DNA of 64,000 bases, from the NCBI GenBank assembly GCA_021292105.1, contig CM037862.1:6366765-6430764 (forward strand), read 5' to 3'. Source of the stretch: Anadara kagoshimensis (taxonomy: Eukaryota > Mollusca > Bivalvia > Arcoida > Arcidae). Position numbers and translations under genes: made by a program. Shown piece by piece: positions 39,801 to 63,851 of this stretch (position 1 is its first letter; each line of letters opens with the position of its first letter). Under the pieces are notes generated by a model. That model was not told where the DNA came from and searched no databases. It worked only from the letters and a program-made list of their open reading frames with translations.

Positions 39801-40774
39801 ACATCCAAACTATGTATGGAGAGAAAATGTACAACATATTTCTACAGGTAATCATGATTCAAATTCACAAAAAAAAAAATGTCAATTATGCAATTTGAAT
39901 TTATGAAATTTAAACATTTAAATGCAGTTTTAGTGTATCATAAATCATAAAAGTTAAAACAAAGTGCCTGCAATGTCGAAATCAATTTATGAATTTTACA
40001 TCAAGTCATCACAAAAACAATGACATCATTTTGCAATGTTGCTATAGTCACATTTTGGTATTTTTGTACTGTATTTTTTAAATCATTATTATTATTAAAG
40101 GGTATGCCTTTATAAAATCTTCAAATTGTTATCATTAAGTCATCAGGAGCTATTTTCCATTAATAATAAAAAAAACAGAATATGGTATACCATTCTTCAT
40201 TATTAATAGAGACAAGTGCCTGTGATTAGGTCACTGCAAACATGGATTGTCTCCCCTGCTCTTCAGATTTTTTTCTGTACTATAAAAACAAATGATCTTT
40301 ATAACAGTCATAAAGCGTAACCAGCTAAGTGATTGGTCTTAGTTTTACAACTGGTTTTATTTCCTTGATTTGAACGTAAATAAATGAATGAATGAAACTG
40401 AGATGTATAGAAAGATTCAAACTAAAATTACAAAACAAAGTTAAAAAAAAAACTTAGAATTATGCCTCCACTCATGAAATATTGGATACACAATTATGTG
40501 CTTGAATCAACTTTACAATGGACTCAAAGACATATGTACCGTAGGCAATTCTGGTACCCTACATCGATTTAATTAAGTTTTAACCATAGTATAAACTACT
40601 TTAGTTATAGTTGCTAATATAGTCTTATAGAACTATATATATACCGGTACACATACCTCCTATGGTCATTTTGTAGTCCCTTCTGTAGGATTCATTGACA
40701 TATCTCTGTACAAATGATGTTTTACCAACAGTAGGGTTTCCAATTATTATCACTTTAAATAAAATTTCAGTCAT
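36574..40774 (-). CDS. RAB29: Rab GTPase, Rab32/38/29 subfamily, RAB29 (RAB7L1)-like, 210 aa, complete
   Basis: Five minus-strand exons join perfectly: 40774-40657, 39759-39688, 39036-38855, 37534-37413 and 36712-36574 (633 nt including TGA). The P-loop GNPTVGKT is at residues 12-19. The switch I threonine is T37 in MTIGVDFALKVV. The switch II entry is WDIAGQERF at 60-68, where IAG instead of TAG marks the Rab32 subfamily. NKCD is at 123-126 and ETSVK at 151-155. The C-terminus is RCGC, giving a CxC double-geranylgeranylation motif. CLLLANKCDL, FTSMTR and GWTETSVKE favour RAB29 over RAB32/38. The family acts on lysosome-related organelles and Golgi/endolysosome membranes; RAB29 recruits LRRK kinases in vertebrates (established knowledge). 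Intron 3 carries a retrotransposon fragment. Upstream of the ATG, a plausible minus-strand acceptor at 40866-40867 suggests a 5' UTR intron. The gene is divergent from CRELD. Confidence 0.95.
37740..38310 (+). mobile_element. 5'-truncated, frameshifted non-LTR retrotransposon 3' end
   Basis: Plus-strand sequence encodes the last part of a LINE-type reverse transcriptase polyprotein. It has a YRSECWR motif, then LKWLGHVFRM and a basic GKRRPGRPK motif followed by TWRRTV, typical of the C-terminus of endonuclease-reverse transcriptases. The open frame 37813-38298 is intact, but the preceding homologous sequence from about 37740 is joined only through two small indels near 37845-37890. No catalytic RT core is present. 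The stop is followed by a short TAAG repeat, a usual LINE 3' end. It lies in RAB29 intron 3, antisense to RAB29, and is a dead fragment. Confidence 0.85.
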
Positions 40775-40917
40775 TTTTGACAATTTTTTTCAAGAAGATT
40801 AAATATAAATTGTTTTTCAATTGGGCAACGTTCACTGCATGTTTTTTACAAATATTCTGCAAAATCTGAAAAAATATACAACAGTATTAAGATTTACTTA
40901 AAATTAATTAAAATATA

Positions 40918-41473: not shown

Positions 41474-42144
41474 CTTTTTTGGCCAACTTTTTACTAAATA
41501 AGACCTAACTTGAAAGAAAACACTGCTATTTTAAACTGCAAAACCTGTTTGTCATCATGACATTTCCTGTATTTTCATAACAATAAGACACGCGTGTTGT
41601 CTTTGATGTAAAAATTATCACATGTGACGATTGTGTATTGCATATACCGGGGAGACAGTTCCTCACATGACTTGTTGACATGTGATTCCCGGAAGCAAAA
41701 CAATAGAGTAATCTCCCTTGGCGGAAACTCGGCAGATGTTTCGTTTTGGAAAATGATCGCGCACCTGACGATCTGTAAGTTAGTCGACCGATGTCCCCGA
41801 AACGAATTTCGTGGCTCGATCTTATTGGCTGAAATAAGTCTGACATGGCAGTAGGATAAACAACGTTGCACATGGTGTGCTTTCACTTTGAATAAATTTT
41901 TCCAATTCTAGGGGTTAATCTTGAAAAGCACCATCCACAACTTCACACATTGACAAAAAGGGATATCTTAATAATACCGATGAGTAATTTTATTTGAGTT
42001 TATGATATTAGACTTGCAAATCGGTTCGATTCAATGCCGGTATATTAGTTAAATGACAGGGAACGCATTTTTTGCCGGTAGTGTTCTGTGATACCCGTGA
42101 TTCCAGAAGCTGCTAAACCAGTGAACTGAAAACAAACATTGAAA
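41474..42144. promoter_or_regulatory. Shared divergent promoter region of RAB29 and CRELD
   Basis: The two start codons (40774 minus, 42145 plus) point away from each other. The stretch about 41580-42130 is visibly richer in CpG and GC than its surroundings. It contains a CCGGAAG Ets-like motif near 41688, an inverted CCAAT box at 41824-41828 and an exact ER stress element. A candidate minus-strand donor near 41473 would end a RAB29 5' UTR exon reaching into this region. Start sites cannot be fixed from sequence. An in-frame TGA at 42127-42129 marks 5' UTR just before the CRELD ATG. Confidence 0.6.
41810..41828 (-). promoter_or_regulatory. ER stress response element (ERSE), CCAAT-N9-CCACG
   Basis: On the plus strand CGTGG at 41810-41814 is followed by nine bases and ATTGG at 41824-41828. 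Read on the minus strand this is CCAAT, nine bases, CCACG, the exact ERSE consensus bound by NF-Y and ATF6/XBP1. It lies 317 bp upstream of the CRELD ATG. Mammalian CRELD2 is a known ER-stress-inducible gene regulated through such an element, which makes the site credible; function in this animal is inferred. Confidence 0.7.
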
Positions 42145-45100
42145 ATGATAATGCTACGGAATTCTGTGTTTAGTAAGAAGAAAATCTTACAGGTTACATT
42201 TGCATTATTTTGCTTTTTAAACTTTTTGACAGTAAAAATATTTGCATCAAAATGTGATGTCTGCAAAGATATGGTCAGGAGATTTAACGAGGTAAGTGTC
42301 GTTTTACAGTTTTATGGATTTTATTTATTCCATGATCAGATTGTTTGATTATGTGCATATGCATTGTTTTATTTTCAATTTCTTTATTATGATTTATTCT
42401 CTGTCCTTTTTAAATTTTCATCATTCTATATTTTTACAATAATTGTTGCAGTATTTATCTATTATTAACAGATTAAATAATGTTAAATAATAAATGTTTC
42501 CAAGTCAACAGACCATCAGTTGTTTGGAACTGTCAAATATTCACCATCTCTTTATTTTGAGGAAAAAGAACATTAATAACTCTAATTAAACATGCATTTT
42601 TCCAAAATCAAAAAGCTTAAAATCAAAACAATATAATTTTGGCTCATGACATCCTTGAGCTATGCGAAATCAGCAGATGAGTAAACAGATAACAATGATG
42701 TTCAGCAATGATCTGAAGATAATCAATAGAAGTATGAAGCTCAGTTTGTAGTGTGTCAAAAAAAGCCCATGGGTCTTATTTTTGGAGCATGCTGTGACCT
42801 TTAGCAAGTTACTTTATTTCACAATGCTGCTGACATACCTAGGGACTGGTGTGACAGCAAACTCTGCAGTTATAATTATTCAAATTGAAGTACCTTAAGT
42901 CTTTAAAAACTGTCAAGTTGAAATGTATCACATGTATAATTAAATTGGATTCCAACCATTTAATGTAACATTTACAGCCCAGTGATGGTTTTCTTATTGA
43001 CTTTGAAAAATTCATTCTGTTAGTGTATGCTTAAGCAGCTTAAGACAAACCTGTAAAGTTTTGAGTAGAATAGACCACCTGTGGTTGTTACAGATGACAC
43101 TTACAACTACACTAACAAGCAGACTAAGTGAATAAATGTAATGTTAAGTATATTTGATACAGACACATACAGTCAGCTAATTTGTACCTATTTATTAATT
43201 TTTTATTTTTAGGGTTTAGAGACAACCAAAAAATCTAATTTTGGAGGCGGTAACACAAACTGGGAATCTAAAAGTTTAGGAACTTACAAAACCAGGTTAG
43301 TAATATGAACAGTTTTCATAATGTGAATTATGATGTAAAATAATATGAAAAAGTTGATTCAGTTAGCTATCCAGTCAAGATTATTGCATTTATAAGAAAA
43401 CATCACCAGCTATAGGTATTGTCAAAATTTACACCTTTGTTAATGAGCAGTGAAGGTTCTGTGACAATACTGCAATTTTAAGGTCTGTATCCTAGGGCCT
43501 AGTATTAATTTAAAAAATTATAATTTTTTAAATCATTTATCTTTCTAAATACAAATAAAATATTGATTAACATTTGGTACTATCATGAAATCAGGCATTG
43601 TAATGATGTTTTATGCCCCAGTCAAGTTTCTTTCACTTATATCAAAGTGGTCCGACAGGGATGGGAAACTTTCTCAAATTAGGATCTGCTCAAGTGAGTT
43701 TTGAACCTACCGGTATTTGGTTAGCGAGAGGCATTGTGACCTGTAAGTGCATGCTTTAGACCACTTGGTCACAGAGGCCCAGATTAGTTTTGGGGCAATT
43801 TGTATATTGTAGATTATAGAACATAGTGTTGTCACCTAGCTGATGGCATGTCATTTGAGGATCCAATAATCTTCACTAAAATTCCTTGTGTTTTTGGGAG
43901 AGTGTATCATTTAGATCACTTTTTAATACTTGTATGATCTCAAATTTTGCATCATGGAGACTATGGTCTTTTTCATTAAAGTGTACAACTTGTATAAGTT
44001 TCCTAATTCTACAATGTCTCTTATTATATTCAGTGAAACAAGATTAGTGGAGATTATAGATAATCATTTATGTCAAGAAAATAAAGAGGTAGAGTATATA
44101 ATTATTATTTTCTATTTTTTGTAACACCTCCCCTCCAACTCATAGTGGCCAGGCATTATGTGATGCCTTTTGTTTTCATTGACAACAGCATTTATCTGTC
44201 TGTCTATCCATCTTTCCATCCAACAGTGGTTCTCCAATAATAGTTTGAGAACAGCATAAAGGTTTTTTAAACTTTACAGAATAATTGTTTTGTACTATAA
44301 AGAAAAGGCAACATTAAATTTTCAGCATCCTTTAAAAAAGACCTGAGAGATTGGACAAATTACTTTATAATAGAAATAATGTTAATGTTTCTTTTTATTA
44401 TGGAAGTATGAAAGAGTTGGACATTTCACATGCTGAATAATTCGCGTAGCAAATTCTGTTACATATATAATGTCCAATTATTTCATACTTCCATAACAAA
44501 AAGAAAAATTAACTTCATTTCTTATAATTCAATTTATAGATTTTTTTTCAACAAAAAATCAATAATTTAAACAACAATATATATATAAAAAATATCAATG
44601 CTATTGCATATGAATTCAAATGCCTCTTCGCATCATCCATAATAAAATGACGTTACTGAGAGCAAATTCATATGCAAACTTAACAGAAAAATATGACCAA
44701 TCAAAATGCTAGAAACAAAGGAGAATTGAAATACTGTTCAATAGCAGGACACTGTATCATTTAAGTGAGATGCCTTATTTTCTCTGAAGTATGGCTACTA
44801 ATTAGTTTTACCATGTATGAAATACAAGTGGTACAAGAGAGCTTTGTCTACCCCAGCATGTCAGGGTGTCAGCATCAGCTTTCGTTTTCAAAGTATTGAT
44901 GTAAAGTTTTATTGTGATAGACTAAACAAGTTGACACTTAGCTATGCATGTGTCTATGGTCCTTGTAAGTTGTAGTACCGGTACTTGCTTTTTAGGTACA
45001 TGTAATGGTTTGGCTTTGTAGAGTAATAAATGAGTGTCTTCATCAATAGAACTTAAGATATATAACTATTTGATACATAGATATACCTGATGCTAAAGCA

Positions 45101-48100
45101 TTTGCAGGTAGGGGATTCAGTAGTTAGGGCATTTTTCTACTGTCCAACATTATTTACAGAAAGGAATTGGACAGCTGAATTTTACTCTTGATTTGTCTTG
45201 TTTCATTTGCACTTTTGTGTAATTTTACTGTCCAATTGTTTGTTCTTGTGCTGTTCATTATAAAACATTTTAGGAATTAAATTGATTGGAATTATGTATC
45301 CAAGTCTCTTTGCACAAAACAGTTGGATATTCATCTAAAAACTGTCAATGATTAGTTTGGGTTGGGTATGAAAGATTTTCATAGATAAAATGTTCAATAC
45401 ATGAACAATTAATTATATAAATTATTCTCAGACCTTTATTTATGTTTGAGTGATATTAACATTTCCTGATATCAATATTGAATAAGTACTTATTAATCTG
45501 AAAATGTCAATATCACTAAAATACAGGCCACTCCCCAATAATTTGTGTAAATGGAAAAAAATACATAAAAAAACAAGTATATTGTATCATATACATTGTA
45601 CAATTAATATTATAGGACTACTCATGCATGATACAATATAATTATATATATATTATTCTGCTACCTTGGAGATAATACAACAAAGTAAAATGTCAATGAA
45701 AATATAACAGTACAGTAATCAATAATTGAAACATGATGATCGATTGATTGACTGAATCCTCCCTGAGCACGCTGCAAGGATAAAAAAAAAATTTCCACAT
45801 CACCTATAGCTGGTGACATCTTGATATAAGTGAAAATATTCTTGACTGGGGCGTAAAACTCCATTTAATCATTCATTCAATCCTTGTTAACTCAACAATG
45901 AAAAATTTTGATGAAATCCATTACATGATTAAAAATTTTCAAATTTCTATAAAAATGTTATGGGTAAAATTTATAATAATTAAGATGCATATTATTTTGT
46001 TTTTCAAGACAAATAGTTAAGTAAGAATCATCATTTTATACTTAATTGTGGTGATTTATTTAACTCCTATTATTATTTTGACTATGAATTAACATATACC
46101 ATGTAATTACAGCTAGAGGAGGCATTGGAAAAAAGACAGTCAGTCTTCAAACCTCGAGAGTTACCGTTTGTAACACAGGTATAGGGAATATGTCCGTCGT
46201 AACAATCTCTAAAGTTAATGTTGTAAATCTTCAAACATATATAATATTTTATGTGTAACATATAAACATATGTTGTTACCAGTATATTTTGTATATAACT
46301 GAAATACATGTGTAATCTTTCTGATTATGTGTGAATCTAAATTAAATATTCTCTTAAATGTTTGTAAATTTTGTATTGTATATAATAAAGAGATTGAAAT
46401 TAGCTGTACATCACGCTGGTTCCCTCAGGTAATCACGACAAATAAATACTGGTAGATACAACAGAAATATTATGATCATAGGCGCATCTAGGAGAGATTA
46501 AAAGAGATTGAAATTTAGCTGTTCATTGCTCTGGTTCACTCAGCTGATCAATTAAATAGATACAACAGAAATATTTATGATCATAGGGGCATCTAGGTTT
46601 TTTAAAAACAATAAAAAAGTGTTACTAAAGGGCTGTTTTGAGAAGGTCACACACACACACACACATACACGTGCATGCATGTAAACATATAAATGTGTAT
46701 GCATATGTGCATGGAACAGCTTTCAAAAGTTGATTACTGCAATACTGTATAATGAATGTGTATATTTATGCTTTAGCTAACAGCATCTAGTCCAACAGTA
46801 TTTTACTTATATTTCAATTGGACTAGTTCCCAGAATAATTGTAATTTATATTGCATTTAGCAAATTTTCAAGAATAAAATTTGTTATTTTAAGATTTTTT
46901 GATGATATACAGTCAAACAGCATTTTCAGAGTTGAAACTTTCTGGGAATGCTTCTCAACTTAGACGATAAATATGTCTTTAACATAGCTTTACCAGAAGC
47001 AACTAATTATTGCAAACAAAAGTGCATAAATAACATTTACAGCACCAAAGATGTCATGTGATTGTTCATTGGAAACATTTCCTGACTATAAATACAGTGA
47101 GTGCTGCAGTACATTTAAGTTGGATGGCTAATTTGTTTATACGGTACTAAATGGTGCTACCCACACATTTCCCAGTTGGGCAATAATTTATTGTTAGTGT
47201 CTGGTCTATATAATTATATTGTTTTTGATTGCTTTAGACTTTGGTAAAGTATGCTACATTGGTGTCAAATGTATAGATGCACACAATCATATATTACAAT
47301 GTACTTAAAACTAATGCTTTATAGATGTGGTAACATTATAAAATTACAGAAAAAGGAGAAAGATGTTGAACCCACCCCCCGCCTCCCATAACTACACTGC
47401 GGCAGCTCAGTTGGTAGAGTGCTTGCTCCTTAAGTAGGATGTGATTCCATTCATCTTTGTTAACTTTTGTATTATTATAATAATGAATTCTTGTTGATAA
47501 ATCATAATTTTAAAAATCTTAAAATAATGAAATTTCCCAGTATCTAACAGTTTATAGAGTTGATATACCTGTTATATTTACCTGTTCATTCAATTCAGTT
47601 TTACACAGGTAGAGCTAATGAGATCAGTAAAATAATACCTGTAGATATTTACCTGGAAAAATTAATCTGCCTCTGTCTCTGGGATATATACTAGGATTGA
47701 TGTTGAATCATATTTCAAGCAGATAATTATTTAGATTTTAATTTGTTTTAGGATAAGTATTTCAGTTAATGGCTTTTTGGTTTGTTTTCAAATCTCTCTT
47801 TAATGACATTTAATTTAATTTAATATGATAACCCAAAGAGAAAATCTGAAACTGAAAATCATATATATATATTGGAATTTCTGATTTTTGGGTTTCTGTT
47901 GTTAAGTGATTTCCACCACTGTTAAATGAGGTTCCTGTTGTTAAGTGATTTCCACCACTGTTAAATGAGGTTCCTGTTGTTAAGTGATTTCCACCACTGT
48001 TAAATGAGGTTTCTGTTGTTAAGTGATTTCCACCACTGTTAAATGGGTTCTTGTTGTTAAGTGATTTCCACCACTTTTAAATGAGGTTCTTGTTGTTAAG

Positions 48101-51100
48101 TGATTTCCACCACTGTTAAATGAGGTTCTTGTTGTTAAGTGATTTCCACCACTGTTAAATGAGGTTTCTGTTGTTAAGTGATTTCCACCACTGTTAAATG
48201 AGGTTCTTGTTGTTAAGTGATTTCCACCACTGTTAAATGAGGTTTCTGTTGTTAAGTGATTTCCACCACTGTTAAATGAGGTTCTTGTTGTTAAGTGATT
48301 TCCACCACTGTTAAATGGGTTCTTGTTGTTAAGTGATTTCCACCACTGTTAAATGGGTTCTTGTTGCTAAGTGATTTTCGCCACTGTTAAATGTGATTCT
48401 TGTTGCTAAGTGATTTTCGCCACTGTTAAATGGGGTTCCTGTTTCTAAGTGCTGATCATCTTTCAGAAGAAAGAGGGGGATATTAAATGTGATTTTTCAT
48501 TCTTCTGTCTGTCCACAGTTCTTGTCTAATTCTCCAAAACCATAAAGCACTATATCACAAAATTTGGTGCAAAGCATCAACATAGATAGAAGATGTGCAT
48601 ATCATTAACTCAAGTTGGTTTACTCATTTTCCATGGAGTTATGGCCCTTTGACTGAAAAACCTAAAACAGTTCAAATTTCTGAATTGCATGATTGGAGCC
48701 AAAATCTGATTTGATATTTAGCTTCTCTATAGTCTTAAACTATTACTGTGCTTCATTCACTTAATGAAAGGACTACGTATGATAAGGGGGTCAAAATGGC
48801 CCTTGTAGCTGAAATACAATTTTTGGTATATTAATACATGAACATATGACATATTTGAAAATAGAGGTCATTTGCCTGTCTGACCTCTATAATGACCTTG
48901 AATTGGGGGGTCAAAGGTCATAAGGGTCAATCAACTATTTTCTGTTGTTTCCTATGTATTTATGCATTTTAATTATTTTTTCAGAGATTTATGACGTGTA
49001 ACATTATTTTCCGGTTAAAATAAAAGCATGTGTATGAAAAATAAGAAATGTCTTGCCGAAATATTGATCTCAACTGGTTTTTTTCTGGATTTTTAAAATG
49101 AAGAGTGAAAAAAATGTTACATGACTACATAAAATTTTAGTTGTTTAGTAAATACGACACGACACGTCTCTTGGAATTTGAGTTAGAAATGTGAAATTGA
49201 TAATATAGATCAATTATATAAAACAAAATTTGCACCATTTAATGAGAAGACTTGTGAACTAATGATAATTACGGAAAGGGGGATAACTCATTCAGTGTAA
49301 ACAGAACACCAATACCAATCAAGAAATCATGTTACTACCTTTGTAATACATTTTACCAGATTTTTTTCTTTTCACTTGAAACAGACACCAATTTTCTAGA
49401 CTTTCTGTTGCAAAATATACATTTTGTATTACTCCCAAATCTGCAGAATATGGGAAGCCTTATGCTATTTGGGCTACCTATAAGAAATATTGTTTTGTCG
49501 TTACTCTCATCTGCCTCTCGATTGAATTTGTTTGTTCTTTTTTTCATAATAAAATTAAATTCTGGTTGGATGAATGTTGTTTAGCTTGATTTTCACCATT
49601 CTATAAAAAATCAATATATGAACACCTGCAGAGGAAGTGTCAAAATAAAATTGACATGCTGTCAATTTCAAAAGTACACAATTATTTTATCAGTACACAC
49701 ATTTAAAAAGACAGAAATAAGTAAAATAAGTATAATATTTGTAACAGTAATAATTAAATTAACTTTTACTGTATACATGTGATCTATCTCATATGTACCA
49801 TCTGACAGAATTATCTCCCTTTGTGAAATTTACAAGTTGGTTGTTTTAAATTGGAAAGTTCGACCCCGGTTCATGCATTAACCACTGTGAATTTTTGCAC
49901 AAAACTTTTCATATACATATCCTTTTGATTTGGGCCTTAATTATGTTGGTTAAAGCTTGAACCCATATCTAATTTTTGAAAAGATATAGAAAATTAGATG
50001 TTTTTCCACAAATTGTATGCACAATTGGAACCCTAAAAGGTATTGTAAGGCATATAATGTTTTAACAATGTTTCCCTCACAAGTTTACTACCTTTTATTA
50101 ATTATTTTAAATTGAATAATGGCAAAATAAGGATTAAAAACCAGATTTTTAGCTATAATTCTAGTCTGTTGTGGTGCTGATAAAACAACAGCATTGTACA
50201 TTAATGTGTTCTGAATATTTATTTTTGCAATATTCTATATAGAAATGATATATAAGCCATATTCTGAGAAAACTTTATGGCTTTATTTTCAAATAAAATG
50301 GCACACTACATGTCACAGGAAGACTATTTTATGAAATCTAACAAAAGTCGTGATAAATTATCTCCCCTTGTTTGTTACCAAATCCAGATTTTGTGATCCA
50401 GATTTTGTCAAAGTTCTCAGTGTGGTTTCATTTTCAATGGCGACTTTATTCTGTTACTGCTTGATGCAATTACGTCATATTTTGCAGTTCAATGACCATC
50501 AATGTCTTTTATATCAAGAAAACATGTAACAAAAAATCATTTTATGCAAATTAGCACACTACAATTTCTCAAAACAAACCAAAATGTGCAGAAAAACACA
50601 AGTGACTAATAAAACAATTAAATTTGCTTCGGTTTACAACCAAACAAATGTCACTAAGACCATACCTTTTAAATAACATGTGTATTTTTAAGCTTGGTAA
50701 TGGTATATAGACTAGAAATATGTTGACCTTTGACCCCTAGGTTAGAGGTCAAGGTCAGTTGGACAGGAAAAATATTACCATTTTCGTTTAGAGTAGACCT
50801 TGATGTAATAATATGCTAAAAATAAAGATTCTATGAAGTGGGCCATTTTGACCCCCTTATCATACGTAGTCCTTTGTTCGAAAAATGGGTAAAGCATTTT
50901 TGCGCTAATTACCAAATACCTTCATAATGTGATTTTGTCTGGAGTAATTCTGCATAACTATGAAGCACTGTTTCATGAAACCTGGTGCAAAGCATCAACA
51001 TTGATAGGAGATGCACAAATTATTAACCCGAGTTAGTTATGGCTCTTTGATTAAAAAGTCTTAAATGGTGAAATTTCTAAAACACATGTCTGGAGCCAAA

Positions 51101-54100
51101 ATCTTATGTGATATTTGGTTTTTGTATAGTCTTAAACTAATAATTCATTCATTTCTAGAAATTTAGTTGCAAAATGCACAGCATCAAAATTGACAGCAGA
51201 TGTGCATATCATTAACCTGAGTTGGTTTGCTTATATTCCTGTGAGTTATTGCCCTTTGAACATGGGCACAAATAACCATAAAAAACCTGTTTGTCTGGGA
51301 TCCTAATTTGCTTGTTATGTGTTATTTTCAGTGCCATATGATGTTAGAAGAACATGAAGAATTATTAGAAAAGTATTATTTTACAGTATTTGCCAAACAT
51401 TTAAGTACACAAGATATGCATGAATGGTTTTGTATTGAAAATGTAAAAGGTAAGTTAATGTCCTTGCAGCAAATGATTGATGAATGGGGATTTACGTCCC
51501 AGTCAAGAATATTTCACTTTAATTGAGGTGTCACCAGCTATAGCTAAAGTGGAAGAAATTTTGACTCAGGGTCAATGTGCAGGGACAGTTCTTAAGTGTG
51601 CCATGCTTACTATCATATGGGATATCCTTTTTAGGTCTTTTCTAAAGGACCCTGCAACTTTCATTTCTAAATGCACAGTGCTTGGCAAATAAACAGTCAC
51701 AACCTATTTTTAAGTTTTGGTCGGACCCGAACAGGGTTTGAACCCTGACCTGCCACATACAGAAATAGCATTCTATCAACTGAGCTAACATATTGGTATT
51801 CAGTTCAATGTACATGTAATCAGTCTAAATAGAACACTTTCATGACTTCAAAACAGAAGTCCATACAGAAACCAATCAAACTGTTTTGTCACTGCTATAT
51901 ATTTTATTCACAGAGTATAGAAAAGCATGCACAAAGCATGCTTTATTTCTGCATAGACAGAAAGTTTTTTCTAGGTAATTCTTATAAATTAATTATAGAA
52001 AAAAGCTAAAAGAATGAAGTAAAATTGTGTTCTATTGTCTTATGATGTAAAAAATACTTAAAAACAATAAATCCCATTTTCCTATGAATTCCCTATCAAG
52101 CCTTATTTGTATATAGTATATTCTTACTAACAAAAGCTTTTCCTACATGTGTGTTGATGGTTAATCATGTTGTTGATAATACTGACACTGGGTGACTTAA
52201 ATAGTCATTGTACTTTAATTTTCAGCTTGTTGCCCAAATAATACATATGGACCTAAATGTTCACCATGTACTGGAGGGACCGAGAGACCTTGTATGGGAA
52301 ATGGAGAATGTGATGTAAGTACCGGTATTTGATGATTCAGTGTTCAATCTTCCTCTAGCTGTTTAATGAATCATTAATTAATCTGCTTGAAACTGTTTTA
52401 GATATTGTAAACGTATTTATCTTCAGGGTGTACTAATGTTGCGCAAAATTAAATACCAAGCAAAAATTATATTATACTTATTATATTATAGTGCATATTT
52501 TAAAAATGTGAAAATTTAACAATGCGGATATGTCTAAATTTTCTATACGGCGAAAATAAATACACACAAAATTAAATACATTTACAGTATAAAATACATG
52601 TTGATAGAATCTTTAATTTTTATGTGATGTGTTTATATTAAATACATATGTATGGTATATTGATATTGAAGCACAGCTGGCAGACAACAGTGACAGCAGA
52701 ATTAAAAGACATGAAGTTGTCTTGGGAATAGCATACTAAATGAACTACGGAGAGTTGAGTAATAGTGATTAACATCTCTATCAAGAATATTTCACTTATA
52801 TCAACATGGCACCAGCTATAGGCGAAGGTGCAGAAATTTTTGCTGTGCATTGCACTAATGGCATTATATGGTAGAGTTTTTTATCATGCCACAACTAACA
52901 TGACATGGGACTGTGTGTGTAATCTGGTTTTGTGAAAAAACAATAGATTTTCTGAGACTGTTTAAGCTATCATATTTTGTTCCAGGGTGCTGGTACCAGA
53001 CAAGGATCAGGGCGTTGTACCTGTGATAGAGCGTACAATGGTGAGACCTGTGAATCATGTCAACTTGGATATTACGAATCATACAGGAACACGACACATG
53101 TAAATTGTGAAAGTAAGATTTTGTAGAATTTTGATTGGCTATATAGTAAGATTGATACTTGTAGCTTTTATATACAGTTTTAGGCCAAAACAAGAATTGG
53201 TTTTGATTACCGGGTACAACAAACTTGCAACAAAGTCCTTCCAATATTGCTTCCATGTTCAATTCTTCTACATTTATTTAACTACAAAAATTTATGGCTG
53301 TCTTCATTTTACTCAAAAAATCTATACATTACTCTGTGTTGATTGACCCTAAAAACTTTTCAGACATAAGATAATTTTCACTGTTTCTCAGCGACCTGGA
53401 AAATGGAAAAATGTGCAGGAACAATTTGTTTCTATAATTACATATTATGCTAGTTTTAATTTTACAGCACTAGACAGCCATTTTTGAAATGCAATTCCTC
53501 ATCAGTAGTGCTTGGACCAAATTTGTGAAACAAAATTTAATATAATAGATTTTAATTTCCATCCTTCTAACTGTCCATCCAGACCCTTGTCCAGCGCAAT
53601 CCTCTATGAAGAACTATTTTACAGAACTTTTTGCAGAGCATCAGCATTGATAGGAAATGCATATATCATTAACCTGAGTTGGTTTGCTAATTTTCCTGTG
53701 ATTTATGGCCTTTTGAACAGAAGTGCAAATTGCAAAATTGTGTCATCTGGCTGGGATCCTAATTCACTGAATTTGCTTGTCTCCACAGTTTTACACTAGA
53801 CAATGACAAATTGACATATACATGACAAACAATAAGTACTGACTTTTATCCTGTTACCATTAACATATATTTAATTGTTTTTCTTTGTTTCAGAATGCCA
53901 TCATAGATGTAGAGTATGTTCAGCAGAAGGACCAAAAGGTTGTTTAACTTGTAGAGAGGGTTATACAAAAGCTTCAGATGGAGAGTGTATAGGTATGTGT
54001 ATATTTATAAAGACTGGTTGTATTAGCCACTTGATGTTTTAAGCCCCTACCATGCAATGCATTCTGCAATCTTGCTAAAAGTCAATGTGTAAGGAAGCTT

Positions 54101-57100
54101 CCTTAAGACGTGATTTTTAATTTGTTCAGATTTTTGCTTTGGGGACTCAAATGGGGAAACTGTAGCATGATCCTTATAAAATTCAATACAATCCTCTCTG
54201 GTGAGCATTCAGTATCATCCATTGGCCAATTTGCAAAAATGAGCTTTTACTGTATATATGTTCCAACAAATGAAGGATCTTTTGTAAACATTACATTCTG
54301 CAGTGGTAGAACATTAGTATGTTTTAATCAAAGAGCATTTGAATGTCTTACACCACAGTTGTTTATTATTTTTTCAGATGTAGATGAATGTACCAGGGAG
54401 AAGTTAGATTGTGGACACAACACATACTGTGTAAATAACGAGGGGTCATATGACTGTATCAGTAAGTATATATCAATAAAGCTGTTATAGCTAGCTATAC
54501 AGGAGGTGCTTACCCTTCAAGAGCACCTGTCCTTACTTCCCTGGTGGATGTTCACATGTTTAACTTAATTTGCCAGTTTACAAAGTTTTGAGCTAGGGCC
54601 TTATCTTGACAACTGTCATTTAGTTTGATCGTAGCCCTGTCTTGGTTAACGTAATGTACATGCTTGAGCTTTGCCCCATCTTGACAACATTGTAAATGTT
54701 TCAGCTTATCCTGTTTATTTTGACGACCTGTACATAATGCAGAATAAATTATGCCAAACCTATGATTTTGTGTGAGCATCACAGACTATGGGAAATAATT
54801 TTGGCATATTTTTATGATAATAGATAAATATTCCATTTTGTTTTTCATGCTTTCACTTTGTCAACTTTTGATATTTCAGTATATTGGAGACAGTCAACTT
54901 CCTTACTTAGTAAAGGTTATGTTAGCATGTGACCATTTTCTCACTGTCAGTTGTTTTCAGATTGTACAGTATGCATTTAGTTTTCATATTGAGTGTATTT
55001 TATTTCCAGATTGTGATGACGGCTGTGACACATGTACAGGTCCTGGACCAGATAAATGTATAGAATGTAGAGCTGATCATTATCTTGATGAAGAGAAAAT
55101 ATGTAGAAGTAGGTGTAAATGTACATCTGAGCATGCAGTTTCATCAGACTGATATAAGTCTCTCCTGAGCACACAGTCTCATCAGACTGATATAAGTCTC
55201 TCCTGACCATGCAGTCTCATCAGACTGATATAAGTCTCTCCTGAGCACACAGTCTCATCAGACTGATATAAGTCTCTCCTGACCATGCAGTCTCATCAGA
55301 CTGATATAAGTCTCTCCTGACCATGCAGTCTCATCAGACTGATATAAGTCTCTCCTGACCATGCAGTCTCATCAGACTGATATAAGTCTCTCCTGACCAT
55401 GCAGTCTCATCAGACTGATATAAGTCTCTCCTGAGCACACAGTCTCATCAGACTGATATAAGTCTCTCCTGACCATGCAGTCTCATCAGACTGATATAAG
55501 TCTCTCCTGAGCACACAGTCTCATCAGACTGATATAAGTCTCTCCTGAGCACACAGTCTCATCAGACTGATATAAGTCTCTCCTGAGCACACAGTCTCAT
55601 CAGACTGATATAAGTCTATCCTGAGCACACAGTCTCATCAGACTGATACAAGTCTCTCTTGAGCACACAGTCTTATCAGACTGATATAAGTCTATCCTGA
55701 ACATACAGTCTCATCAGACTGATACAAGTCTCTCTTGAGCACACAGTCTCATCAGACTGATATAAGTCTATCCTGAACATACAGTCTCATCAGACTGATA
55801 TAAGTCTCTTCTGAGCACACAGTCTCATCAGACTGATATAAGTCTCTCTCTTCTGAGCACACAGTCTCATCAGACTGATATAAGTCTATCTTGAGCACAC
55901 AGTCTCATCAGACTAATTTTTGTCTCAGCTTCAGAGACTTAAAACAACTAAGAGTCTAAGACTATCACATCGAACACCAGTCCCTTGCAAAGTTAACCCT
56001 AAGTGCCCCATATGCTGGGAAACAATCCCTTGCAAACTTATCACAAAAGTTCCATAGATGGAGTATTTCTGCAGGTACTTGGTACTTATTCATTTAACAG
56101 TTTTGTGGACTGGAACACTAAGTTTTTTCAATTTAAAAACATAATGGGTTAATGTAACAATATCAGTGTTGCCTACATCAAGCTTACTTATGCAAAATAC
56201 AGTAGAATTTATAAAATCTGACTGCCCAGGATAACTTAAAGTAGTTATTTAGTCTTAACTTTTTTAAATGAAATTGGGACCTCATTGGCAGAGTGCAGGT
56301 CACAGCACTTCTCATTACCTAGGATGGACCTAAGTCCCACTTGACTAGATTTTAGTTTAAAAAGTTTGTAAGTTCACTTGTTAAAAAGTTGGTGGTTTTC
56401 TCTGCATGAGCATTCTGATTTCCTCCATCATTGCAGAACTGACCCCTTAATATAAGTGGAAGATGGGGGTATATTACACTACCCCAGTGCACTTCCAGTT
56501 AGCATAAATTTCACTGTAATATATGATTTACAGAATTAACTGTACATGAGTTTATGTTTGATTTCAGAATGTGATGATGCCTGTTGGGGTTGTACAGGAC
56601 CAACAACAGAGGACTGTAAAAGATGTAAAAAAGAATATGAATTAGTGGATAACAAATGCACAGGTAAGGATATGAACGAAAACGCCATTGGTTATATTTT
56701 GAATATGTAAGGGATCTCAAAATAGTATTACTTCTTAAAGTTTGATAAAAATGTTGTGTACCTTTGCCAAATGCATATTAAACTTACAGTGCCTTTTTGT
56801 CAAGATTGGAAATACACAGCAGCCCCAAACCTAGCAATTTGCCTTCCCATAGTTAAAGTTGGGGACAGTAAAAGTTATTAATTATAAAGTAAAAAAGATT
56901 GAAAATGCATTAAATTTGGAAACTTGAATGTATTGACTTAAACTTGAAATAGAATATATACCGAATACACCTGTATATGATTGCAAACCTGGTTCACTTT
57001 GATTCAAGGTCACTTTCACCTTTAGGAAATGTTAGGAAGCTTGATGGTCATATTTTTTTTAAGAACCAAAACGCCCAAATATCAGAGTTATACTCATGAA

Positions 57101-59151
57101 ATAAATAAATGTATATCTTTTGCAGATATAGATGAATGTACTACACAGAAGGACAGTATATGTACTGGTGGAAATGTTGACTGTATAAACACACCTGGAA
57201 GTTACACCTGTCAATGTCACCAAGGCTACGAGATGCAGGATAATGTCTGTGTTAAGAAACCAAAAGGTAAGATATGTTAACTGAATAAAAATACCTTTCA
57301 ATGTTACCAAGGTTAAGCAATGCAGGAAATGTTCTCTTTTGACCTTTCAACTTTCGACCTTATTTAGGTATGTGACACTTAATCTTATATTGGTATAGAT
57401 TTGTGCCAAAATCAATCAAAGTCCATCTATAGAGACTAGCATTGTGATTTTTATGTACCACATGGGTACTGTAAATGTAAAAGGGTGGCTATAATAGAGG
57501 TGAAAGGTTTTACCACTGTATGATGTATGATTAACTTTCATGGCTAATTTACTACCACCCCCTCAACTAGTTTGTGGGGGTACATAGGAAACACTATGTC
57601 TGTCTGTCCCTCTATCTATCCGTCTGTCTGTCCATCTGTACATGTAAAATCATGTCCTGGCCATATTTCATCAATGCTTTGGAGGACTCTCATGAAACTT
57701 CACATGGATAATCTTCATGATCCAAAGGTGTGTCATGACCTTGAACCAAGGTCATATCAGAAAGGTCAAGGACGCAGGAAACCTTTAAATGTTGGGGGTG
57801 GGGGTATTTGGCTCTTAAGAGACAGTTCTAGTTAACACTGAAAGATGTTTTATGGTTTTATGGGTATGCACTAAGACATATGAATATATTTTTTGAGTAA
57901 TTTAAAAGACATTAGGAAACTTGTTTATTACAGAAGTAGTTTAGAGACATATATGTATTGTACTAAAGGATGATTAAAATACTCTTGTTCTTTTATGTTT
58001 ACTGACAAGATTTAAATCTGTAGTCATTGTGATCAACTAAAACACAGTCATTTCACCTGTCAAGCTGACCATTTTCTTTAGTAAGACATTAAATTAAAAT
58101 CACAAGATCTGAAAAAATTATTAAAATCAAATGTCTGCCTAAACAAGACTTAACACATTATCTCATTGAAATGAGAATTATAAGATTTCTAAAGATTTGG
58201 TGAATTTAACTTGGGCCAGTTTGGTAGAAGAAGTAAAATTAATATAAATACATGTATAAGGGAAGTAAAAAATGGAGTTCATATATTGTGACCTAGATCA
58301 TACAATCGACCATATCCACTGATCCATTATTGCTGATGAAAATTGTAAACCATGTTCAGCATGCATATGTACACCATTTTGACCTTACATAGTAAATTCC
58401 AGGTAATGGCCAAACCAATTTTTCCTATAAACTTTTATGATCCATATCCCCCTTCTCAAATTTTTATAAGCAAGGAAATATACTTTTTTACTTGTACAAT
58501 CCAGCCTGTTTTTGCCAAGCACTTGGTATTGCGAAATGAGTCACGGTTCTTTGGATGGAAGCTTAAAATAAACAAGTCCTGTGTCACGGTAGGCATGGCA
58601 CGATAAAGAACCCTGCTATATAATGCCATCAAGGCAACGCACAGGCCAAATTTCTGCACTTTCGCCTATTGCTGGCGATGTCTCAATACAAGTGAAATAT
58701 TTTGACTAGGATGTTAAACACCATTATTCAACTACTTCATCTTGCCCATATTCATAGGTACAATTTTTTTGATTCAGGCTTTCATGTGACCTATTGTTGT
58801 CAGATTTTGAGTTTCGAGTGTGGTGGTTTACAATGTCTGCTGACAACTCTTATTGAGAATAGTTTGTACTGCCTTATATGAATTTATTGACTTGTATAAT
58901 TGCATATACATGTAAATAGTATGAAAACAAGTGGTATTCAGCTTGCAAGTTAAGCCTAAAGTTCAATTGGGCAATTGGAATGAACATTAGGTGATAGCAT
59001 AAATGTTACCAGTACATGACAGTTGTGTTCAGCTGCAATATTTTCAGATATCAAATTTTTTTGAATGTGGATTGGGAGTATACTCTCTATCACCTTATTA
59101 AATACTTCAGGGAGGAATGATAGACTTACATAGTGCATAAGTGAATTAGTA

Positions 59152-59191
<40 letters not shown>

Positions 59192-60360
59192 GTGTGGATA
59201 CAATTCTAGTGTGTGGTTCAGATTGTGTTAAGAAAAATTATACAAAATAAAAGAAACGGTGGTGTCTGTATGTGGTTTTAGTGTGTTATCGTAGTGTGTG
59301 TCAGTTTGTTTGTTGGGAGATGTGTATATATTATACCTACACAATCATGTGTTTGTATGTTTATAAGGGTAATAAAAAATTTTATGTGTGGCTTTTTCAT
59401 ATTAAATCTGACTGAAATTCTGAATTGCTGTTATGTAAATATGTACATAAATCTGTATATACTTTACTATATAGAAATTCTAATTTCCTTGCACATATAT
59501 TTCCCACGTAAGCTGTTGTAATTTCGGTGGACATGTAAACCATATACATGTATAATTATCATTATTAATGTAATATATAAATAAAGCTTTTTTAATGTCA
59601 GTTCATTTCTATTGTCACTCGTACACCTATATATTGTTGTTCATTGGACATTGTAAGCTTTAACGTGCAATATATATATACTATATATCTGAAAAAATTA
59701 GTAAAATTTAGATGAAACAGACTTGTTATAATACACATTTAAGAAATTTAGTTTGATTTTGGATGTTTTTGGAACTGGCGTATTCAGTGGGCCTGCATCA
59801 GTTTATAGGTAGCCAGGGTGGAGGGATAATAAGGCAGCTCTAAAACTCTAATATTCACAGAGAATACAGACTCACGCAGCTCTTGAATTATCTCCCTTAT
59901 CCCAAAAGAACTTCCACATACATAGATGGTATTTTTCTTTCAAAATTAGGTATAGAAATACACAAAAATATAATTTTTACTGGGAAATTTAACATTTTAA
60001 AGCTTTAAATACATTTTTGACCATTTTAGTTTATACAGGAAAATATCAAATTTTATGTTGAAATTTAAAATTTTTTAAAAATATGAGAAATGCATTCTGG
60101 GTGATTTAGGAATCTCATGGTGCTTTGTGGATATATTTTCAGATAAACCTAAAACTAAAGCATCCAGTAGTAAGACAAGGAAGAAGTCCAGTAAAAAGAA
60201 TGTGCCTAGTTTATATCAGTTCATGGGTGTGATAGGACTGTTTATTATTGTTGCTAAGATTGTGTATAGAAATCTGCTGTTACTCGGTGTTGTGGTCTCA
60301 TTGTTGTCTGTGTATGTGTATTGGTTCGCGGATCAGTTTGATCAGATGTACCGGAACTGA
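42145..60360 (+). CDS. creld: CRELD, membrane isoform (451 aa, signal peptide, WE domain, FU and EGF repeats, two C-terminal TM segments)
   Basis: Exons: 42145-42291, 43213-43295, 44034-44088, 51332-51449, 52226-52314, 52986-53112, 53894-53992, 54378-54461, 55010-55108, 56568-56663, 57126-57266, 60143-60360 (1356 nt with TGA; all phases agree). The ATG follows an in-frame TGA; ATG at 42151 is an alternative start. Residues 1-37 form a signal peptide with core LFCFLNFL. The WE-domain region (about 38-130) has the CxxC KCDVCKDMV, the NFGGGNTNWE signature and CHMMLEEHEELLE. Cysteine-rich/EGF sequence follows to about 206, then furin-like repeat 1 (207-239), calcium-binding EGF DVDEC (240-267), furin-like repeats 2 and 3 (268-332) and EGF DIDEC (333-379). 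The last exon gives a Lys/Ser-rich linker and two hydrophobic segments (about 402-422 and 424-441). CRELD proteins work in the ER and secretory pathway in protein maturation (established knowledge). The luminal isoform ends at 63851. Confidence 0.96.
43615..43790 (-). mobile_element. SINE with tRNA-Leu/Ser-like head
   Basis: The reverse strand starts with GACCAAGTGGTCTAAAGC, a D-arm-like sequence, and ends in the GATATAAGTGAAAG-type body. The same head is at 17610 and 18615 on the plus strand. Confidence 0.55.
44365..44527. mobile_element. Hairpin MITE with about 60-bp arms in a CRELD intron
   Basis: Arms at about 44365-44425 and 44469-44527 are inverses, with a core TTATGGAAGTATGAAA and TTGGACATT, and about 43 bp of loop. 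The match extends outwards through CTTTTT and GTTAAT blocks. Confidence 0.8.
45735..45895 (+). mobile_element. SINE 3' fragment
   Basis: It contains CTATAGCTGGTGACATC, GATATAAGTGAAA and CTTGACTGGGGCG, with an ATTCATTCAATCC tail. Confidence 0.6.
46113..46184 (+). CDS. Candidate alternative terminal exon of CRELD (22 codons then Val-stop)
   Basis: After an ATTACAG acceptor, an open phase-0 stretch (starts LEEALEKRQSVFKPREL) fits directly onto exon 44034-44088. It ends at GTATAG, which is both a weak donor and, if read through, a Val-TAG stop. An AATAAA lies about 200 nt downstream (near 46384). Inclusion would cut the protein just after the first part of the WE domain. Vertebrate CRELD has nothing here, and skipping restores the conserved join ending in CHMMLEEHEE. 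It may be a rare isoform or chance. Confidence 0.3.
   Translation, partial: LEEALEKRQSVFKPRELPFVTQV
47395..47455 (+). repeat. tRNA-like SINE head fragment
   Basis: GGCAGCTCAGTTGGTAGAGT is a tRNA D-arm/A-box sequence. The anticodon and T-arm regions do not fold convincingly, so it is not called a tRNA gene. A reversed relative is at 1-45. Confidence 0.5.
47891..48435. repeat. 39-bp minisatellite, about 14 copies
   Basis: The unit contains GTTAAGTGATTTCCACCACT and is repeated head to tail with few substitutions; some units are 38 bp. Copies diverge at the right end (GATTTTCGCC variants). It abuts the repeat starting near 48455, inside the large CRELD intron. Confidence 0.92.
48455..51305 (+). 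repeat. Older dispersed repeat interrupted by the 48767-50875 element
   Basis: The left part (48455-48766) and right part (50876-51305) share internal blocks such as GGTGCAAAGCATCAACAT and a following CATTAAC...GAGTT segment. A related fragment is at 53565-53770. A stretch resembles the Helitron-like element near 12610-12690, so this may be a diverged relative. It ends just upstream of CRELD exon 51332. Confidence 0.55.
48767..50875. mobile_element. 2.1-kb DNA transposon-like element with 36-bp perfect terminal inverted repeats
   Basis: AAAGGACTACGTATGATAAG and the next 16 bases (48767-48802) are mirrored exactly at 50840-50875. Subterminal inverted motifs (GGTCAAAGGTCA near 48908, TGACCTTTGACCCC near 50728) support a single unit. 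The interior has no transposase-like ORF. I see no clear target-site duplication. The flanks read as one older repeat split by insertion, and the element lies in the large CRELD intron. Confidence 0.75.
51468..51795 (-). mobile_element. Near-full-length tRNA-derived SINE beside a CRELD splice donor
   Basis: On the minus strand the head (51795-51725) has a Pol III A box (TTAGCTCAGTTGA) and a perfect B box (GGTTCAAACCC) with a CAGGG/CCTGT T-stem. The body includes a conserved CACCAGCTATAG segment seen in other copies. The tail (ATTC-type repeats) lies about 20 bp from the donor of exon 51332-51449. Confidence 0.75.
52768..52935 (-). mobile_element. SINE body fragment
   Basis: It has AAGAATATTTCACTTATATC, CACCAGCTATAGGCGAAGG and TGACATGGGACTG in the same order as other copies. 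The tRNA-like head is absent. Confidence 0.6.
55010..55108 (+). CDS. creld: CRELD exon encoding furin-like cysteine repeat 2
   Basis: The exon encodes a CDDGCDTCTGPGPDKCIEC pattern ending in a Cys-Arg, 99 nt, phase 1 at both ends, with donor GTAGGT. It is closely similar in layout to the next exon (56568-56663). A 38-bp minisatellite begins about 20 bp after its donor. Confidence 0.92.
55125..55915. repeat. 38-bp minisatellite, about 21 copies, next to a CRELD splice donor
   Basis: The unit contains TCATCAGACTGATATAAGTC and ends in variants GAGCACAC, GACCATGC or GAACATAC. Each unit can form a short AGACT/AGTCT stem. The array starts about 17 bp after the donor of exon 55010-55108. Confidence 0.93.
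56568..56663 (+). CDS. creld: CRELD exon encoding furin-like cysteine repeat 3
   Basis: The exon encodes CDDACWGCTGPTTEDCKRC and continues to NKCT, 96 nt, phase 1 at both ends. It looks like a duplicate of exon 55010-55108. Because both are symmetric, each can be skipped, or one chosen, without a frameshift. Confidence 0.92.
57545..57835 (+). repeat. Dispersed repeat ending GGGGGTATTTGGCTCTTAAG
   Basis: It contains a CTGT/CTAT-rich stretch (57596-57635) and GACCTTGAACCAAGGTC and ends with GAGACAGTTCTAGTT. It lies in the CRELD intron before exon 60143. Confidence 0.5.
58585..58735 (+). mobile_element. SINE 3' fragment
   Basis: It contains GGCACGATAAAGAACCCTGC, CCTATTGCTGGCGATG and CAAGTGAAATATTTTGAC. 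It lies in the CRELD intron before exon 60143. Confidence 0.55.
59153..59188. repeat. GT microsatellite
   Basis: A (GT)n run in the last CRELD intron; shorter CA/GT runs are near 46648 and 61816-61840. Confidence 0.9.
60143..60360 (+). CDS. creld: CRELD alternative last exon A: basic linker and two transmembrane segments
   Basis: The acceptor is TTTTCAG at 60136-60142. The exon begins in phase 1 (completing an Asp codon) and encodes a Lys/Ser-rich linker with KTRKKSSKK. Two adjacent hydrophobic helices follow (about residues 402-422 and 424-441), split by a short KIVYRN segment, then an acidic/aromatic tail ending QMYRN. This matches the two-TM C-terminus of CRELD1. Candidate poly(A) signals lie at 61508 and 61869. 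Confidence 0.9.
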
Positions 60361-61260
60361 ACCTGATTCTCAGTTCTGTTAGAGGCTGCCATGATGTGAA
60401 GGTATTCAAACTTACCTGTAGTAACTTTGTAATATAGATGATAATAGAGCCAGTGATTATGGGTATATTGACCCAGTCATCTATTTCTATAGCATATAAG
60501 TTTCCTCAATTCCTTTAAAAAAAGAAAAGCATAAACAAAAAAAACTTTCTACAAAACAAAACAAGTCAAAAAATTAGAATTTTGACCAGGACTTTACTTT
60601 TGAGGTTATAGGTTGTATTCCCAAAATAACATCACAGGTAAACTGGTTTGCAATATAAAATTCTTAACTAAATATTACAATATCCCTGTATCATGGCAGT
60701 CCTACTACAGTGGCTTTTGCAATATACTTCTTCAGTTAAAACTTATTCAAGCTGTATTTATCAGCAGTAATTTAAGCATGATTTGACAACTTTTGAGTTA
60801 ACACACAATGGGGTTATTTTCGGTTTTGTATCATGGCTCTTAATGTATTCTGAAAAAAAAAAACTTATGACAGTTTTTGTGATAATGGTGAAGTTTTAAA
60901 GCCAAATGTCAAAATACTTTGGAATTATAACAAAAAAAATTATTTTCCCCTCAAAAATTAGCAATAATCATATGCTGCATTAAATAACCCCTTTGGTTGA
61001 TTTACCATATTCAGTTTTCAATAATTATCTCCCTTACACTCTGTACAATACATATACCTATTGTTTACCCTCCTAATAGAAAATGAGTTCTCAGCTAGTA
61101 GTAAATATATTTGATTAATGGTGTATTTTCAGTGAAAAGTGCATAACCTTATTTCTTTATGAAACCTAATAATGCCCCAAATTGTTATTAAAGTTGACAA
61201 GAAGTTAAAAGAAATGCTTCAAATTTACCCACCCTTTTATGAATCTACCTATATTTAATA

Positions 61261-61440
61261 CAGTAAAACCTTGCTATAATGCCCTTCAATAAATTTAGCA
61301 CCTTGTTTATTTCCATACTCATTAGAAGTCCGGAAATCTATCATATTTGTTATCCGTGAGCTTCAATATACATTGTATCCCCAAATCCCTCTAAATTTGA
61401 CAAAACAAATGGACGTCACTTCAAATATCGGTTTTACCAT
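61261..61440. mobile_element. MITE of the CAGTAAAACC family in CRELD 3' region
   Basis: It starts CAGTAAAACCTTGC after TA and ends GGTTTTACCAT before ATA. It lies in the 3' UTR or intron between the two alternative CRELD last exons. Confidence 0.6.
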
Positions 61441-61868
61441 ATACCTTTTTGTTTTTGATAAGCTGTAATTGCCAGTACATTCCTTGTCCGAGGAATGATG
61501 AGTGAGCAATAAATTAAGAAAACTATGTTTTACACCCAGCTGGGTTTAACATTAGATGAGTAGAGTTGAGTAACCATGTTTTACACCCCAGTCAAAGTTT
61601 ATAGTTGTTTTGATACAGGATATATTTTTGCCAGTAACATTAAGCATGTACAAGTAAATAACTGCATGTTAACTTCAGTGTTTTATTTGAAGGTGTTTGT
61701 TTAGTTTTCATTTTGCAATAACTTTATTTTTAATGTAACTATGTATAAATTGGCATGCATGTATGAGGAGTTGCTTTTTGTCCTTCAGGGGTAGTGTTGG
61801 AGGAGTTTTTTATAGTGTGTGTGTGTGTTTGTGTGTGTGTTATCAGTTTTGTTAACATAAATAAGATC

Positions 61869-61874
61869 AATAAA
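61869..61874 (+). terminator. Candidate poly(A) signal AATAAA for CRELD membrane isoform
   Basis: AATAAA at 61869 and another at 61508 are candidates for ending the 3' UTR after the stop at 60358-60360. Which is used cannot be decided from sequence. Confidence 0.3.
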
Positions 61875-62068
61875 AGAATTGGCTTGTAAAGATAAAGTGT
61901 GTGTGTGTTTAAGTTTATATGTGTTCTTTTTAAAGAATATTGCTCTTGGAATTTGAAGTAAAAATGAATCATATTACCATTGATGAAATGAATAAATGAA
62001 CTGGTTATCAAATAAGGGATGTAAGACTGCCTTGGTTGTATATGTATTTATATTTTTGTAGTTGTAGC

Positions 62069-62110
<42 letters not shown>

Positions 62111-62624
62111 AGAGATTGTGTTTGGGTGTTAAGCTAGAGCTGGATTTAAGCAATACTTTTTATGTTTGATTGAAAAATAACTTTTATCTGTTAATGTTTT
62201 AAAATAAAAAGTTTTGATAAAATTAATTTGTTGATTCTGAATTAGGTAGAGACCTTCTTCAAGCACTATTACAGCTTGGACGAGTTACATTATAATTTAC
62301 ACTATGTTTTCATATAACAATGCTGAAGTTAAGGTTTCAAAAGACCAATCATATTGTAGTCAAAGGACAAAATTTGGCCCAATACAACACAAGGGTCATT
62401 TCATCTGTGAAACGGTGCCTTTCAGCAATTTACATTGATATTTATGTCATTATTACATTAAATTATCCTGGATAGAACATGTAAAGCAGAAAATATATTT
62501 CAAGACATAAATAGTTCCATAGAAGAAATGGTGCTGATACATAAGCATTTAATGTATTCACAAAACACCCTAGTTTAACTGGCCAAAAAAAACCACAAAT
62601 AATAAACTTGAACTATAGCACTAT

Positions 62625-62762
62625 TGAACTGCAACTAGTTAGCGTCAGTGGCATCATTTAAGGGGTCAATTAAGGCAGAGTTTTCGTTTTGTTTGTGTGT
62701 AATTCAAGCATGCCAGGCCTTTGTCAGAACATTGTGGGCATGGTCAGCGATCTGTCAATTTG
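62625..62762 (+). repeat. Dispersed repeat family R1, copy 3
   Basis: It matches copy 1 through GTGTGTAATTCAAGCATGCC and CATGGTCAGCGATCTG; it lies between the two CRELD last exons. Confidence 0.7.
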
Positions 62763-63771
62763 CATGAGGAAGTGGAATATAGGCGTTTTACATACAAAAT
62801 CAAGATTATTTCAATTATATCAAGGTGGTCAGTTCTGACATAGTAGATGAACCAGGGCATTGATTTCCAATGAAATGTACTTGTTTAGAGCCAAGCGGAT
62901 GTACAAATAGGATACGACCCTCAAAAGATATTTGAACCGTACAACTATATCCAGAGTTGGAAGTTTTATTTTAATAGTAAAAGCTGTTCATATCAAGATT
63001 TTAGAATAAAAAACAAACATACTAATCCATGACCGAATCACAATCCAGAAGCAAAGTAAAAACTTTGAAACTGACAAATGAGGTTAAACACATGAACGTC
63101 AATCAAGAAAGTGAGGCTGGGTGCCCCAGAAGGGTAAGCACCTCCTTTTTAGCTAGCTACATCCGCCACACATGTAATCAAAGTTGAGTGAAAGGAACAT
63201 GCAATTATAGGGACATCAAATATATCCAGGGCAATCCTGGAGACAGAGACATCAAACTTATCAACAATCCAAGCACAAACTGCTTTTATTCCGTCAGTTT
63301 GGAAAGAATCATAATTTAAAAAAACACCAGTTTAGTAACATATTTATGGACAACTGAACTGGTTTTAAGATAAGTGGTATGATTAGGGGCTTTCCAATGT
63401 TGCTACATGTATAATCACACCATTGAACATTTGCACCTGTATTTGACCAAAGTTGTGATTTTTATAATTAGTAGTATTAATATCTGTTTTGTCTCATTAT
63501 ATTTTTAATTTACTTGTGTTATATTCCTGAGTTTTAGTCGTTTCAAAGTACATGTTCATGTTTTCATTTGCATTTTTTTATTTTGCATCACATGTATGCA
63601 AACAGATACCATAAATTTTTATTGCATTAAGTTTTGAGAATGACAAACTTGACATTACAATTTATGGTTTTAAAATTTTTGTAATTTATTAAAACCACTA
63701 CAAGAGGTAAGTATTGGTTAAATTTTTAACTTTTGGTCTTACAAAATCCTATTATTGTACTTATTTTATAG

Positions 63772-63851
63772 AAGAGGGTGAAGATGACATGGAAGAAGAT
63801 ACCAAAGAAGAAGAAGAAGAATCAGCTGATACAAAGAAAGAAGAATTATGA
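63772..63851 (+). CDS. creld: CRELD alternative last exon B: acidic tail ending KEEL (luminal ER-retained isoform)
   Basis: The acceptor is TTATTTTATAG at 63761-63771. The exon starts in phase 1, matching the donor at 57267, and completes a Glu codon. It encodes 26 residues, almost all E, D, K, S or T, then TGA at 63849-63851. The last four residues, KEEL, resemble the KDEL/REDL ER-retrieval signals of luminal chaperones and CRELD2. Splicing 57266 to 63772 gives a 405-aa protein without membrane segments. The exon is 3.4 kb beyond exon A. No protein homologue of the acidic tail is claimed; the call rests on phase, splice site, composition and the terminal motif. Confidence 0.75.

Follow-up and report, generated by a model that had tools for sequence, protein, structure and literature searches.

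The window analysed here, a stretch of 64,000 nucleotides from the genome of the bivalve Anadara kagoshimensis (contig CM037862.1), very probably contains a gene for the folding protein CRELD in which the pre-mRNA can end in either of two last exons, one leading to a membrane product and the other to a luminal product. The 12 shared exons, which span positions 42145–57266, amount to 401 codons plus one base, with every join in frame, GT..AG borders at all shared introns, and an AG preceding both last exons. The shared donor after position 57266 (exon end AAAAG, intron start gtaagata) lies in phase 1 and leaves over a single base (G). When exon 12 was joined to the first of the two last exons (exon A), the reading frame ran to a stop after 473 amino acids, and when it was joined to the second (exon B), it ran to a stop after 427 amino acids, so that one donor fits both terminal exons. 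A sequence-only reading of this DNA had already proposed this donor and both last exons; their coordinates proved exact when the exons were re-joined, and translation confirmed its claim that each last exon completes the phase-1 codon and then runs to a stop.

Features of the CRELD gene and its upstream region (positions are those of the 64,000-nucleotide window)
Feature	Position	Strand	Basis or remark
Exact ER stress response element (ERSE) CCAAT-N9-CCACG, inverted relative to the gene	41810–41828	-	begins at -335 relative to the ATG
Exon 1: start codon, signal-peptide-like stretch, CXXC (CDVC, residues 37–40)	42145–42291	+	translation
Exon 2: WE/DUF3456 domain	43213–43295	+	translation, profile match
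Exon 3: WE/DUF3456 domain	44034–44088	+	translation, profile match
Exon 4: WE/DUF3456 domain	46113–46178	+	translation, profile match
Exon 5: end of WE/DUF3456 domain	51332–51449	+	translation, profile match
Exon 6: first EGF-like part	52226–52314	+	label by eye
Exon 7: EGF-like	52986–53112	+	label by eye
Exon 8: furin-like Cys-rich repeat	53894–53992	+	label by eye
Exon 9: calcium-binding EGF, DVDEC...	54378–54461	+	EGF_CA, two stretches in the protein
Exon 10: furin-like repeat	55010–55108	+	label by eye
Exon 11: furin-like repeat similar to that of exon 10	56568–56663	+	label by eye
Exon 12: last of the shared exons, with the phase-1 donor; calcium-binding EGF (DIDEC...)	57126–57266	+	translation, EGF_CA
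Alternative last exon A (CRELD1-like form): basic linker, then a hydrophobic segment long enough for two helices, then stop	60143–60360	+	translation; 217/218 identical in second copy
Alternative last exon B (CRELD2-like form): 26-residue acidic tail with KEEL at its end, then stop	63772–63851	+	translation, chance tests; 75/80 identical in second copy

In terms of domain structure, the shared exons encode an ectodomain with a signal peptide, a CXXC/DUF3456 "WE" domain, and EGF repeats. DUF3456 is the domain that the CRELD papers call WE. When residues 1–156 were scanned alone, PF11938 (DUF3456) scored 35.8 bits (cut-off 21.1; E = 1.3e-8), with residues 36–104 as the best stretch, whereas a scan of the whole protein did not list it at E 0.001. 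The whole-protein scan placed EGF_CA on two stretches after the WE domain (E = 2.3e-12). All nine matches among solved structures (PDB) were other EGF proteins, and the searches for relatives gave no pattern match in viral_contigs and one, unconfirmed, in genome_contigs. The assignment to the CRELD family was made from the domain order, the CXXC motif, the hydrophobic end of one form, and the KDEL-like end of the other, following the descriptions given in PMC6245729 and PMC12448699.

Among the shared exons, exons 10 and 11 are similar furin-like repeats, each in phase 1-1, and therefore skipping of one or the other would keep the frame, or the pair could be alternative to each other. Tandem arrays with units of approximately 38–39 bp (by eye) were also observed in the CRELD introns, at positions 47880–48450 and 55126–55926; in the alignment with the second genomic copy described below, the latter array seems to be longer in that copy.

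Exon A is preceded by ttttcag; the leftover G plus AT gives D, and the frame then remains open to a TGA at position 60360. In an acceptor profile built from the 11 other acceptors of the gene, its acceptor scored 9.1, above eight of the 11 leave-one-out scores. In the resulting form A, 19-residue Kyte–Doolittle windows exceeded 1.6 almost without a break across residues 421–465 (approximately 45 hydrophobic residues), and the protein also carries the N-terminal signal-peptide-like stretch. The sequence-only reading had assigned two transmembrane helices to this exon. The long hydrophobic end has room for two, and we read residues 421–465 as a pair of helices flanking a charged K-VYRN turn, although the hydropathy scan by itself does not separate them.

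Exon B is preceded by tttatag; here, G plus AA gives E, followed by EGEDDMEEDTKEEEEESADTKKEEL and then a stop. The tail of form B is thus EEGEDDMEEDTKEEEEESADTKKEEL, with KKEEL as its last residues, and the 26-residue acidic tail with a KEEL end that had been described from the sequence was reproduced on translation. In form B, hydropathy windows above 1.6 occurred only in the N-terminal stretch; the protein has no C-terminal transmembrane helix and ends in KEEL. The poly(A) hexamers AATAAA and ATTAAA, of which there were 11 between the stop of exon A and position 63771, 11 in intron 12, and 11 between exon B and position 68000, are too frequent in this region to be informative.

A second CRELD copy is located on the same contig (C6:9230853–9251608), approximately 2.8 Mb from the gene in the window. 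It retains 14 of the 14 exons with no indels, and the shared-donor arrangement with both last exons in frame recurs in it. Exon A is nearly identical between the copies; in exon B, the changes are confined to the first 17 bases, and the last 63 are identical. The shared coding sequence differs by 17 synonymous changes (at approximately 230 sites) and three non-synonymous changes (at approximately 973 sites). The corresponding counts for exon B were 1.5 synonymous (approximately 12 sites) and 3.5 non-synonymous (approximately 66 sites); as approximately 3.5 of the five changes alter amino acids, the head of the tail appears to be loosely constrained. In the aligned pieces of the two copies, identity was 80–97% before the last shared exon and 81–89% from there to 4 kb beyond exon B, and the 80-bp bin over exon B ranked third of 24 bins, tied with one other, which is no more than modest evidence of selection.

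One alternative is that the GA-rich open frame of exon B arose by chance in the 3' flank and that the membrane form alone is made. The exon is indeed short and rich in GAA, its acceptor is weak (a score of 3.6, above only two of the 11 constitutive sites and below both the other nine and exon A), and its conservation in the second copy is just moderately above that of its surroundings. However, the second copy retains the frame, the acceptor AG, and KEEL, with no indel within the exon, and an exon of this type is used in the worm (PMC6245729). The score of exon B itself served as the acceptor threshold in the counts that follow. Between positions 57267 and 64200, 25 phase-1 frames of at least 10 amino acids lie behind acceptors as good as that of exon B, one of which has a KDEL-like tetrapeptide at its end. 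Across 94 kb of real sequence, read on both strands (236 + 203 qualifying frames), exon B was the sole match to the wider pattern [KRHQ][DENQ]EL, and none of the 5,112 frames in 2.0 Mb of simulated sequence matched it. When 16,000 stretches, each 6,600 bp long, were simulated with an order-4 Markov model, a strict tail ([KRH][DE]EL, at least 10 amino acids, phase 1, acceptor scoring at least as high as that of exon B) was found in 11, and none of these 11 was as acidic, the proportion of D and E reaching at least 40% in 0 of them. The tail of exon B is more than chance, and we consider it improbable that this exon is a fortuitous frame. We give still less credence to exon B being part of a separate transcript with its start beyond exon A. 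Its location 3.4 kb beyond the stop of exon A would suit such a transcript, but no coding-looking frame of at least 60 amino acids (stop-to-stop, by eye, a length that shorter exons would escape) was found in positions 60361–63771, and the frame of exon B begins at its acceptor and fits the phase of the CRELD donor.

The presence of two near-identical copies in the assembly bears on how many genes there are, and the description of the locus as a single gene hinges on the second copy being an allele. Partner sequences on the same strand of C6, 2.82–2.87 Mb away, were found for each of three flank probes (5.766, 6.267, and 6.436 Mb), and the collinear block that holds the CRELD copies exceeds 650 kb, with an offset of approximately 2.8 Mb. 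This is what would be expected of haplotypes placed in tandem, and the second copy is likelier to be an uncollapsed haplotype left in the assembly than a large duplication. Two real CRELD genes, each with both last exons, are nevertheless a possibility to which we give a minority share, and they would be compatible with alternative last exons in each. Seventeen synonymous changes at approximately 230 sites would be high for alleles, the 81–89% identity of the stretch beginning at exon 12 likewise favours two genes, and no C6 partner was found for one of the four probes with results, which was taken next to the second copy at 9.260 Mb; an insertion there could explain this. Whether as allele or as duplicate, both versions keep both last exons.

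To look for other CRELD genes, the protein was searched exon by exon against the genome of the species (1.115 Gb, 36 contigs; E 0.01), and 103 of 174 candidates were scored. Among these scored candidates there were 32 matches, 24 of which fell in the window gene and the second copy; the other eight, on C2, C6, C11, C15, and C18, covered only the last calcium-binding EGF repeat. This repeat is of a kind found in many proteins. Within the same 103 of 174 candidates, the WE domain was covered solely in the two C6 copies, and no third CRELD was found, although a much diverged CRELD2 could escape a search that reads exon by exon. A DNA query with exon A hit two places in the genome, which are the two C6 copies. 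Five DUF3456 matches elsewhere (three on C15 and two on C5) were weighed as a separate CRELD2 gene and set aside, as their translations looked Canopy-like by eye. The genome-wide DUF3456 search was a poor test for CRELD because it missed the CRELD exons of the window itself, and the protein search was the better one. Two of the Canopy-like exons, at C5:26026817 and C5:25002063, are near-identical, lie on opposite strands 1 Mb apart, and may belong to a duplicated block.

Upstream of the gene, the only exact ERSE of the 64-kb window was found (0.01 expected), and the second copy has an exact ERSE likewise starting at -335. The consensus of this element is CCAAT-N9-CCACG. An ERSE is also present upstream of mouse CRELD2, the promoter of which uses it irrespective of its direction and distance (PMC3091781). 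If functional, the element in A. kagoshimensis would act on both isoforms, given that they have a common promoter. The head-to-head neighbour, at positions 38807–40789 on the minus strand, begins like a P-loop GTPase (FKVIIIGNPTVGKTSFVQRY) and is Rab-like by eye, whereas mouse CRELD2 shares its promoter with ALG12. A more elaborate scheme, which we regard as doubtful, would have one ERSE promoter driving both forms, with stress lifting total CRELD and the choice of last exon alone setting the membrane-to-lumen ratio, together with a possible recent duplication in which both copies retained both exons without a vertebrate-style division of labour.

With regard to the two endings, the anatomy of the locus suggests that exons A and B are mutually exclusive, and we infer from the sequence that both junctions are used. 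Splicing of exon A to exon 12, with use of the poly(A) site of exon A, would give a protein of the ER membrane that ends in two helices, like CRELD1 or CRLD-1A; skipping of exon A and joining of exon 12 to exon B would give a soluble protein of the ER lumen with an acidic tail, like CRELD2 or CRLD-1B. The WE/CXXC and EGF body would be common to both products. The KEEL of form B may be read by the KDEL receptor as a retrieval signal. In S2 cells, fly Windbeutel depends on KEEL to stay in the ER; in the glands of KdelR mutants, on the other hand, it was relatively unaffected, which counts against retrieval through KEEL (PMC3799842).

One gene with a transmembrane and a KDEL-like ending fits not only the sequence and the second copy but also the published genes of the worm, the fly, and the planarian. 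In Caenorhabditis elegans, crld-1 is the sole CRELD gene, and splicing of exon 9a or 9b gives CRLD-1A, with two predicted transmembrane domains, or CRLD-1B, with a KDEL; CRLD-1A alone is required for levamisole-sensitive acetylcholine receptors (PMC6245729). As proposed here for the bivalve, alternative last exons of one gene provide a transmembrane or a KDEL-type end to a shared WE and EGF portion, and the isoform-specific tails are of similar length (70 and 25 amino acids in the worm, 72 and 26 here); the worm tail was compared with that of exon B in its length and its described KDEL end (PMC6245729). The genes differ in the motif, which is KDEL in the worm and KEEL here, and in protein size (356 and 310 amino acids versus 473 and 427) (PMC6245729). 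Drosophila Creld (CG11377), as described, also yields transmembrane and non-transmembrane forms from one gene through PA and PB (PMC12448699), and planarian Smed-CRELD has two predicted isoforms, transmembrane and secreted, which were compared with ours by isoform type (PMC5055394). The statement in the sequence-only reading that alternatively spliced CRELD isoforms are known in fly and worm is borne out by these accounts (PMC12448699, PMC6245729). Among vertebrate proteins, CRELD1, with two transmembrane domains, corresponds to form A and CRELD2, with an ER signal, to form B. CRELD1 and CRELD2 are separate genes in vertebrates, whereas here both endings lie in one gene. Vertebrate CRELD2 proteins are described as ending in REDL or HEDL (PMC10018036), the mouse motif being REDL (PMC6093884).

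The mechanism has thus already been published in the worm and fly and predicted in the planarian, and the gene described here adds an example to a known kind, not a new mechanism; nor is the retrieval signal novel, because the B form of the worm already ends in KDEL (PMC6245729). Literature searches combining mollusc, bivalve, or oyster with CRELD or CRELD2 found no molluscan CRELD in titles or the starts of abstracts. Because like logic has been reported in a nematode, a fly, and a flatworm, an ancestral single-gene solution would be the parsimonious reading. The A. kagoshimensis gene would be one more animal gene that makes both CRELD forms, alongside those of the worm, fly, and planarian, and by parsimony this extra example favours the view that the split into two genes took place in the vertebrate lineage. 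Its exact junctions and candidate ER-stress element are also starting points for asking whether the choice of 3' end tunes luminal and membrane CRELD.
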